Shown here one piece after another: positions 62,286 to 64,000 of a DNA stretch of 64,000 bases. This DNA comes from Pseudomonas sp. Root71 (GTDB taxonomy: Bacteria; Pseudomonadota; Gammaproteobacteria; Pseudomonadales; Pseudomonadaceae): positions 124,001 through 188,000 of the forward strand of contig NZ_LMHY01000027.1 in assembly GCF_001429045.1 (NCBI RefSeq). The letters are read 5' to 3'. Within the stretch, counting starts at the first letter, position 1. Every line of letters begins with the position of its first letter. The notes under the pieces are model-generated. The model was not told the DNA's origin and ran no database searches. It was given only the letters and a program-made list of their open reading frames with translations. The position numbers and the translations under genes are program-made.

Positions 62286-63317
62286 ATGGCCAAACGCCAA
62301 CTCAATCGTCGTCAAAACTGGCGCATCGAAAAGATTCAGGGCGAACGCGCTGCCCGCGCCGCCAAACGCGAGTCCTCGGCCGTCGAGGCGCTTGAGGGCG
62401 GCGATCTGGGCCCGGAACAGCACGGTCTGGTGATCGCGCACTTCGGTGTGCAGGTCGAAGTCGAGGCCCGTGATGGCGAACTGGCCGGCCAGGTGTTCCG
62501 TTGCCACCTGCGCGCCAACCTGCCGGCGCTGGTGACCGGCGATCAGGTGGTCTGGCGTGCCGGCAACCAGGGCATCGGCGTGATCGTGGCGCAACTGCCG
62601 CGCAACACCGAACTGTGTCGTCCTGACAGTCGCGGTCAGCTCAAGCCTGTTGCGGCCAACGTCGACATGATCGTCATCGTGTTTGCACCGCTGCCCGAGC
62701 CCCACGCCAACCTGATCGACCGCTATCTGGTCGCAGCCGAACATGCGGGCATCAAGCCGCTGTTACTGCTGAACAAATTCGACCTGATCGACGACAACAA
62801 CGCACCAGCGCTGAATGCCTTGCTCGCCGTATACCGCACCCTCGGCTACCCGGTGCTGGAAGTGTCGGCGCACCACGGCAACGGTATGGAGCAGTTGCAG
62901 ACGCAGCTGGACGGACGCATCAGCGTGTTCGTCGGCCAGTCCGGTGTCGGCAAGTCATCGCTGGTCAACAGCCTGCTGCCGGAAGTCGAAACCCGCGTCG
63001 GTCCGTTGTCCGAGCTGTCTGGCCAGGGTACCCACACCACCACCACCGCGCGGTTGTTCCACTTCCCCGGCGGCGGTGAGTTGATCGACTCCCCGGGTAT
63101 CCGCGAATTCGGTCTGGGCCACGTCAGCCGTGCCGACGTCGAAGCCGGCTTCATCGAGTTCAACGACCTCCTCGGCACCTGCCGCTTCCGTGACTGCAAG
63201 CATGACCGCGAACCGGGTTGCGCCCTGCTCAAGGCCCTGGAAGACGGCCGCGTGCAGCAGCAACGGATGAACAGCTACCGCTCGATCATCGCCAGCCTGC
63301 CGGAAAACGGCTACTAA
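62286..63317 (+). CDS. rsgA: ribosome small subunit-dependent GTPase RsgA
   Basis: 343 residues. N-terminal OB-like domain, then a circularly permuted GTPase: NKFD (163-166) precedes GQSGVGKSS (217-225) and DSPG (268-271). The C-terminal zinc-binding domain uses Cys299, Cys304, His306 and Cys312 ([14 protein letters not shown]). It assists late 30S maturation. In PAO1 it is followed by motB; here the next genes are the TIR/caspase-like pair. Confidence 0.97.
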
Positions 63318-63517: not shown

Positions 63518-63925
63518 ATGCAAACCTACCACCTGTTCATCAGCCACTCATGGAACTACTCCGACGCCCACGACAATCTCGTGCGCCTGCTCAACGCCAA
63601 GCCCGGTTTCACGTACAAGAATTTTTCGGTACCGCCGGACAACCCGATTGTCGGCGCGAAAACCGACAAACAACTTGAGGAGGCCATCGAAAACAAGATC
63701 CGCCCGTGTTCGGCGGTATTGATCATGGCCGGGATGTATTCCACCTATAGCAAGTGGATCAACAAGGAAATCGAGATCGCCAAGCGCATGGGCAAGGTGA
63801 TCATTGCGATCAAGCCGTTCGGTGCCGAGCGCATTTCCACGGTGGTACGTGACGCGGCACATGCCGAATGTGCGTGGAACACCAACAGCATCATCGATGC
63901 GATTCGCCAGCATACGGCGGTGTAA
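63518..63925 (+). CDS. TIR-domain protein (ThsB/DUF1863-like)
   Basis: 135 residues forming a single TIR-like domain. MQTYHLFISHSWNYSDAHDN is the first strand and loop (FISHSW), PVGAKTDKQ-type linker IVGAKTDKQLEEAIENKI follows, AVLIMAGMYSTYSKW is the central strand, and KWINKEIEIAKRMGKVII is the helix that carries the likely catalytic Glu84 of TIR NADases. Such small stand-alone TIRs make NAD-derived signals in Thoeris-type defence. GAGGGAC precedes the ATG. The next gene starts 2 bases after its stop, so they form a tight pair. The role as signal maker is inferred from family and neighbour. Confidence 0.85.
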   Translation: MQTYHLFISHSWNYSDAHDNLVRLLNAKPGFTYKNFSVPPDNPIVGAKTDKQLEEAIENKIRPCSAVLIMAGMYSTYSKWINKEIEIAKRMGKVIIAIKPFGAERISTVVRDAAHAECAWNTNSIIDAIRQHTAV

Positions 63926-63927
63926 CC

Positions 63928-64000
63928 ATGCGCAAGGGACTGTTTATCGGCATCAACGACTACTCCCATGTGTCACGCCTGAGCGGCTGCAGCAATGACG
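63928..64000 (+). CDS. caspase-like (peptidase C14) protein, 5' end only
   Basis: Only 24 codons are in the window. They read MRKGLFIGINDY then SHVSRLSGCSND. The strand KGLFIGINDY followed by LSGCSND is the usual opening of bacterial caspase-like/metacaspase domains (K-x-L-x-I-G-I-x-x-Y, then L-x-G-C/A-x-N-D). The catalytic His and Cys would lie beyond the window. Start spacing of 2 bases from the TIR stop implies one transcript and one system. The identification rests on a short N-terminal match. Confidence 0.65.
   Translation, partial: MRKGLFIGINDYSHVSRLSGCSND

Follow-up and report, generated by a model that had tools for sequence, protein, structure and literature searches.

Type IV Thoeris, as reportedly set out by Rousset et al. 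in Science in 2025, consists of a TIR protein and a caspase-like protease. In type I Thoeris, several ThsB genes stand beside one effector, the SIR2-type ThsA. The aligned Glu of the W-x-x-x-E motif is the catalytic residue of TIR proteins. N7-cADPR is given a role in type IV Thoeris (PMC12847820), and 12 type IV Thoeris operons are placed behind capK/capS (PMC13373217).

The operon analyzed here resembles type IV Thoeris in architecture, fold, and motif: the genes for a TIR protein and a caspase-like protease are adjacent in one operon (here on one strand, with 2-bp spacing), the effector has the caspase fold and a His/Cys dyad, and the Glu of the W-x-x-x-E motif is found in the TIR, here in both TIRs. 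It differs in having a dedicated second TIR (TIR2) as an additional third gene, in occupying a conserved chromosomal slot, and in the loss of the first TIR (TIR1) in some lineages; no type IV Thoeris model in NCBIfam or PADLOC matched the operon proteins. With type I Thoeris it shares more than one TIR per effector and a ThsB-type TIR (PF08937, PADLOC ThsB), but the effector here has a caspase fold, and the best models for TIR1 and TIR2 are PF08937 and PF13676, respectively. The EACC1-associated bacterial caspases (NF047832) likewise have a caspase domain, whereas no EACC1 partner was recognized here and a conserved C-terminal segment is present instead. Our literature search did not recognize a second TIR, or a TIR devoid of the catalytic Glu, in caspase systems, from which we do not claim absence from print. 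Judging from the sequences and by analogy, the locus is probably an immune operon on the chromosome that pairs TIR and caspase in the manner of type IV Thoeris, and in which two TIR enzymes would feed one caspase and bring about abortive infection.

The window, i.e., the whole 64-kb stretch of DNA analyzed (G000:C27:124001-188000), belongs to a genome of 6.25 Mb in 30 contigs. The closest loci are from Pseudomonas, with a caspase identity of 99%. Of the caspase gene the window contains just the initial 73 bases, and of the TIR2 gene nothing; the remainder was read from L003, a stretch reaching past the window end in which window position equals L003 position plus 60000 (Table 1). The original prediction of a stand-alone TIR frame containing WINKEI with Glu84, followed after two bases (63926-63927) by a gene whose ATG at 63928 opens MRKGLFIGINDYSHVSRLSGCSND, was located exactly as claimed. 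The operon, however, includes a third gene, the second TIR, so that the order is TIR1, caspase, and TIR2, followed by a hairpin, with motB and motA on the other strand and rsgA upstream. A promoter scan found none, which carries little weight for Pseudomonas.

Table 1. Features of the TIR-caspase operon and its borders (window positions, or L003 positions where so marked)
Feature	Position	Strand	Match or remark
rsgA (ribosome small-subunit GTPase), left border	62286..63317	+	PF03193 RsgA_GTPase, E value 3e-57
TIR1, stand-alone ThsB-type TIR, 135 aa, predicted catalytic Glu84	63518..63925 (L003:3518-3925)	+	PF08937, PADLOC
Caspase-like protease, 319 aa, His81/Cys130	63928..64000 in window; whole gene L003:3928-4887	+	Peptidase_C14
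TIR2, 163 aa, predicted catalytic Glu75	L003:4887-5378		PF13676 TIR_2; start overlaps caspase stop
Hairpin with T-run	L003:5390-5429		3' of TIR2
motB, right border of site, then motA	motB L003:5430-6476	minus

Profile comparison confirmed that TIR1 is of the ThsB kind, as had been proposed: it matches PF08937 ThsB_TIR (53.1 bits, cut-off 21.2; E value 4.6e-14) and the PADLOC model ThsB1|ThsB (E value 1.9e-14). Glu84 is present in 76 of 76 full-length sequences in an alignment which includes the window's own, and the W-x-x-x-E motif aligns with that of the B. cereus TIR. The second gene, extended beyond 64000, proved to encode the caspase-like protein that its N-terminus had announced, with the caspase fold and the His81/Cys130 dyad. 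The product matches PF00656 Peptidase_C14 above cut-off (67.1 bits; E value 2.5e-18) as well as the PADLOC 'caspase' model, and all 85 full-length sequences in the first alignment, that of the window among them, have both His81 (in AGHG) and Cys130 (in DCC). The AlphaFold2 model of the L013 caspase, which is 99% identical to that of the window, has a pLDDT of 90.3 and a caspase fold, and a Foldseek search with it returned MALT1, metacaspases, and caspases. The C-terminal segment, with CNRH...PVDAEHMYYAA, is conserved, and of five parts of the protein that were compared, positions 276–319 show the strongest constraint (omega 0.052). No NCBIfam model passes its cut-off for TIR1, the caspase, or TIR2; the caspase scores 97 bits against NF047832 caspase_w_EACC1 (cut-off 140; residues 5–206 aligned). 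The genome from which the window comes has another Peptidase_C14 match, located at G000:C25:13948-14865 within a 1213-aa open frame.

TIR2 matches PF13676 TIR_2 above cut-off (43.7 bits) and scores 13.4 bits against NF058526, Thoeris type III ThcB4, below the cut-off of 220. With the AlphaFold2 model of the L013 TIR2 (pLDDT 83.1), Foldseek returned the TIR of SARM1, the B. cereus TIR, ThsB, and nucleoside deoxyribosyltransferases. The W-x-x-x-E motif aligns with both the B. cereus TIR and BcThsB, and Glu75 is conserved in 83 of 83 aligned sequences.

In Pseudomonas, the operon occupies a conserved chromosomal position flanked by rsgA and motB. The contig search yielded 195 stretches and 96 relatives, of which the best 80 were kept, 74 from Pseudomonas and six others. 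Among these 74 Pseudomonas loci, rsgA is upstream in all 74, motB is downstream within the fetched flank in 65, a full or contig-cut caspase frame is present in 71, full-length TIR1 in 68, and TIR2 in 73, the remaining locus stopping at a contig end. Variable cargo of 1.2–3.3 kb lies between TIR2 and motB in L017, L023, L034, L038, L047, L048, L051, and L076; it includes frames of 282–319 aa with FARELQ...LGYARW that are related among L017, L023, L038, and L051, while the other cargo differs. Thus, the interval also takes up other genes, and a fixed fourth component was rejected because the cargo is variable across the ten loci read.

A check proposed with the original prediction was whether the pair recurs in defense islands. 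The pair does recur, with a ThsB-type TIR near the caspase at each of 52 distant loci, but no island was recognized by eye in the neighboring frames inspected (58–64 kb and the L003 flank). A defense island around the window was rejected, the inspected neighbors seeming by eye to be core genes, with rsgA alone scanned against models. No mobile genes were recognized by eye among the frames listed at 58–64 kb.

Relatives of the caspase were found in 52 of 72,556 plasmid records, in two of 50,697 phage records, one of which is a Salmonella contig, and at 19 viral-contig loci. In a phylum sample, seven of 398 genomes, the window's included, have the caspase at an E value of 1e-20; in a class sample, matches at 1e-10 occur in nine of 369 genomes, again including the window's, and in the eight others the match is full-length in two and partial in six. 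The distant loci comprise L087-L094, L125-L128, L133-L135, and L137-L173, leaving out L012/L132, L131, L136, and the repeats L129 and L130. In 48 of the 52 the ThsB-type TIR is directly upstream of the caspase on the same strand; our own TIR profiles were trained on 19 of these loci, so that 33 are independent. TIR2 is near eight of the 52 in the fetched stretches, and at least two more copies lie just outside. Outside the rsgA-motB site, then, the caspase has a constant partner in the ThsB-type TIR and an optional one in TIR2. No ThsB-type TIR accompanies the caspase in L131 or L012/L132; L131 is the single case in which a complete caspase frame had no TIR at the site, and its Cys130 is replaced with a Phe residue. 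On account of the E values, the conservation, and the recurrence, chance is excluded. The interpretation of the TIR-caspase pair in the original prediction is supported: of the two outcomes that would have refuted it, a second gene devoid of the fold or dyad and a pair that does not recur, neither was observed.

A gene of approximately 90 aa lies right after the caspase on several plasmids (L141:3472-3741, L143:3484-3765, L144:3495-3770, L146:3502-3783, and others) and matches the RyR domain PF02026 weakly, below cut-off (E value 0.00027 in L144, 0.015 in L143). Phage RyR-domain proteins are described as degrading or sequestering ADPR signals (PMC13232231). Taken with this role, the weak match raises the possibility that the gene could be a built-in off switch. 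A separate duplicate of the caspase tail, suggested by one E. coli plasmid, was rejected when a reading of the frames showed a broken copy, and the assignment of the small third plasmid genes to such a tail gave way to the weak RyR-domain match. An optional gene that is SLOG-like by eye occurs at L148:3460-3948, L150:3499-3948, L091:4078-4602, and L260:2522-3001; the copy in L260 has a weak match to YpsA SLOG (E value 0.0023, below cut-off) and that in L148 has none.

TIR2 is a dedicated partner of the caspase, and this partnership looks new, as do three patterns described further below: the shared Pseudomonas site with its losses of TIR1, the tie between Glu75 and the presence of a caspase, and the divergent caspase alleles of sister species. 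At an E value of 1e-12, TIR2 occurs in 16 of the 72,556 plasmid records, and at least 15 of these carry the caspase: 14 are among the 40 caspase matches listed, and KY000025 is a further one, the caspase state of KY000029 being outside the count. The chance of this overlap under random placement is about 1e-47, to be read as an order of magnitude only because several records are near-copies. In 13 loci measured, the gap between TIR2 and the caspase is 9–2421 bp, and Glu75 of TIR2 and the caspase His and Cys are present in 13 of 13. Furthermore, TIR2 was found in three of 244 genomes of the order, all three with caspase matches. In L258, a plasmid of Klebsiella pneumoniae (pTK421_2), TIR2 has 64% identity to its Pseudomonas counterpart and the caspase only 44%, which suggests that TIR2 may be shuffled between systems. 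L259, the P. aeruginosa plasmid p30Pae2-KPC, has a TIR-caspase-TIR2 locus in which the caspase match is without the first 47 residues and no gene is listed; acrE1 and acrF3, two genes annotated as anti-CRISPR, lie approximately 0.7 kb from its TIR2.

At the rsgA-motB site, the TIR lost in this lineage is TIR1 and not TIR2, which corrects the earlier picture. Approximately four losses of TIR1 among caspase carriers are placed on the species tree, three of them forced by well-supported branches, and in L008, L039, L054, L055, L060, and L086 the middle of TIR1 is gone while both ends are left. The dyad and Glu75 are intact in the TIR1-less L008, L009, L106, L117, L181, L039, L054, L055, and L060, a list that in some cases includes the same genome from two collections. 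Both proteins are under purifying selection in the TIR1-less pairs, with omega of 0.11 for the caspase and 0.04 for TIR2 in L054/L055, and of 0.12 and 0.08, respectively, in L008/L009 (dS of both pairs approximately 0.2–0.3); since L009 and L054 have the same sequence, the pairs represent three genomes. No caspase with a complete frame and dyad was seen at this site without TIR2, except at contig ends. Among the 74 Pseudomonas loci, the caspase is broken in two of the six without TIR1 (L085 and L086) and in one of the 68 with it (L079), and the loss of TIR1 may thus at times start the decay of the system. A broken frame, odd spacing, or a truncated caspase was noted in seven loci (L079, L085, L086, L135, L137, L162, and L187), so harm to single parts is not rare. 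At the rsgA-motB site of L234 (G807:C127), TIR1 with its Glu stands with a TIR2 devoid of Glu75 and no caspase; this TIR1 may act through a different effector.

Of 398 Pseudomonas genomes, a caspase match is present in 50, TIR2 in 82, and both in 47; a few of the 50 matches are fragments or lie elsewhere. In 30 genomes without a caspase, what comes after rsgA is motB in 25 (at 36–447 bp), TIR2 in three, and other DNA in two. The 35 genomes that have TIR2 but no caspase match were all read: TIR2 is beside rsgA in all of them, at 117–2420 bp, and motB is on its other side in 34, the L225 stretch being without motB. Every one of the 35 genes is an open frame of 152–166 aa, and every one has replaced Glu75, with Leu (18), Gln (8), Ser (4), Gly (3), or Ala (2). 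In the same sample, TIR2 accompanied by the caspase has Glu75 in 46 of 46 genomes, G642, in which TIR2 is on another contig, being outside the 46. Glu75 is still present beside the broken caspases of L079, L085, and L086 and the frameshifted one of L187, so its loss is not immediate. In caspase-less TIR2, Y30, D32, and S69, which are conserved beside the caspase, are changed too; many fold and C-terminal positions are still conserved, and five of five sequences tested match Pfam TIR_2, three of them below the curated cut-off.

These 35 genes do not amount to 35 independent events. In a tree of rsgA and motA from 110 chosen loci (41 full operons, five TIR1-less, two caspase remnants, 27 empty sites, and 35 with caspase-less TIR2), L187 and L234 fall together outside the other carriers, followed by L229/L230, and a clade of 32 Glu75-less TIR2 and three empty sites is next to one that contains 40 full operons (support 82). 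The caspase frame of the L187 full operon is broken at residue 67. The extra DNA of L229/L230 was rejected as a new effector; judged by eye, it encodes a LysR-type regulator and contains an aminotransferase-like gene. The TIR2 tree repeats the groups of the rsgA and motA tree, with long branches flagged, and Glu is present in nine of nine outgroup TIR2. Empty sites are mixed among the carriers. The trees fit an old operon at the site that would have suffered about three losses of caspase and Glu75. The link between the two rests on approximately three tree events and two independent pairs, and is not statistically significant (p 0.5). Median dN/dS from Nei-Gojobori counts indicates purifying selection, with omega of 0.035 for rsgA, 0.10 for TIR1, 0.08 for the caspase, and 0.15 for TIR2; in caspase-less TIR2 it is 0.20 in the Leu group (18 genes, 81 pairs), 0.24 in the Gln group (eight genes, 16 pairs), and 0.68 in the Ser group, which has five pairs only.

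The caspases of the site form two classes, A and B, which separate on the caspase tree: 53, the window's counted in, share 87–100% identity with that of the window, and 26 share 71–77%. On the species tree the classes change seven times in 43 rows, compared with a minimum of seven and a mean of 14.5 in 100 shuffles, so they are still partly clustered. An RsgA identity of at least 98.5% goes with a caspase identity below 80% in 149 locus pairs, and the DNA of two such pairs was read along the site. In L049/L068, with identical RsgA proteins, the site is 88–99% identical outside one island of 67–74%, where dense mismatches cover approximately codons 9–272 of the caspase and both the tail and the flanks match; L049/L066 has the same caspase island plus divergence in TIR2. 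It looks as if the protease body has been replaced between sister species and the C-terminal tail kept.

By analogy with published type IV Thoeris for the NAD chemistry, the signal, protease activation, and defense, we propose that phage infection would switch on TIR1, TIR2, or both, which through Glu84 and Glu75 would convert NAD+ to a cyclic ADP-ribose signal. This signal would bind the caspase, most likely helped by the C-terminal segment (approximately residues 273–319), whose conservation suggests a signal-reading role. The His81/Cys130 dyad would then turn active and cleave cell proteins, and the infected cell would stop before phage release. The TIR1-less lineages suggest that TIR2, as a dedicated second signaling TIR, may be able to run the caspase without TIR1.

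Alternatively, TIR1 and the caspase might be the whole signaling unit, as in the two-gene type IV Thoeris, with TIR2 as an accessory regulator or decoy. The ThsB-type TIR near 52 of 52 distant caspases, compared with TIR2 near eight, speaks for this, as do the faster evolution of TIR2 relative to the caspase and the commoner breakage of the caspase without TIR1. We nevertheless hold it to be unlikely, since an intact-dyad caspase has outlived about four losses of TIR1 and none was seen without TIR2 save at contig ends, and since TIR2 keeps Glu75 throughout the alignment and in the 13 other named records. It is more improbable still that the operon, proposed here as immune, is no anti-phage system but a chromosomal module for stress or cell death that has become fixed in some of the genus. 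Relatives reside on plasmids and viral contigs, the caspase occurs in only 50 of 398 genus genomes with empty sites interspersed among the carriers, the operon proteins evolve faster than rsgA (omega 0.08–0.15 against 0.035), and alleles of the protease have apparently been replaced, even though the one conserved site, the largely vertical inheritance by tree, and the neighborhood at 58–64 kb, where no mobile or defense genes were recognized by eye, would suit such a module.

For caspase-less species, it is quite possible, if just short of an even chance, that the Glu75-less TIR2 is a functionless relic on its way out, for which no new role is needed. Relaxed constraint predicts the loss of catalytic residues after the loss of the effector, the independent events are few, Y30, D32, and S69 have changed as well, and omega is high in the small Ser group; set against this are the 35 intact frames, the low omega of the Leu and Gln groups, and the conserved fold and C-terminal positions together with the TIR_2 matches. 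Our own fuller scenario is tentative and, taken as a whole, somewhat doubtful: TIR2 could replace TIR1 as an alternative signaling TIR, would about three times have become, after caspase loss, a dead TIR kept at the same chromosomal site for a new role, and the caspase body would have been swapped as two allele classes with the tail unchanged. Such a pseudoenzyme might, for example, act as a binder of a phage protein, of a TIR partner, or of an ADP-ribose signal.

If the two-TIR reading is true, two different TIR enzymes serve a single caspase-like effector, and the cell would thereby be able to detect different phages or to withstand the signal sponges of phages. At this one site, individual parts are kept, lost, or mutated in the various Pseudomonas species; these make up a natural mutant series, which bears on which TIR is needed and ties the loss of each catalytic residue to the loss of its partner. 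Among immune proteins, a TIR that is conserved yet catalytically dead would be unusual.
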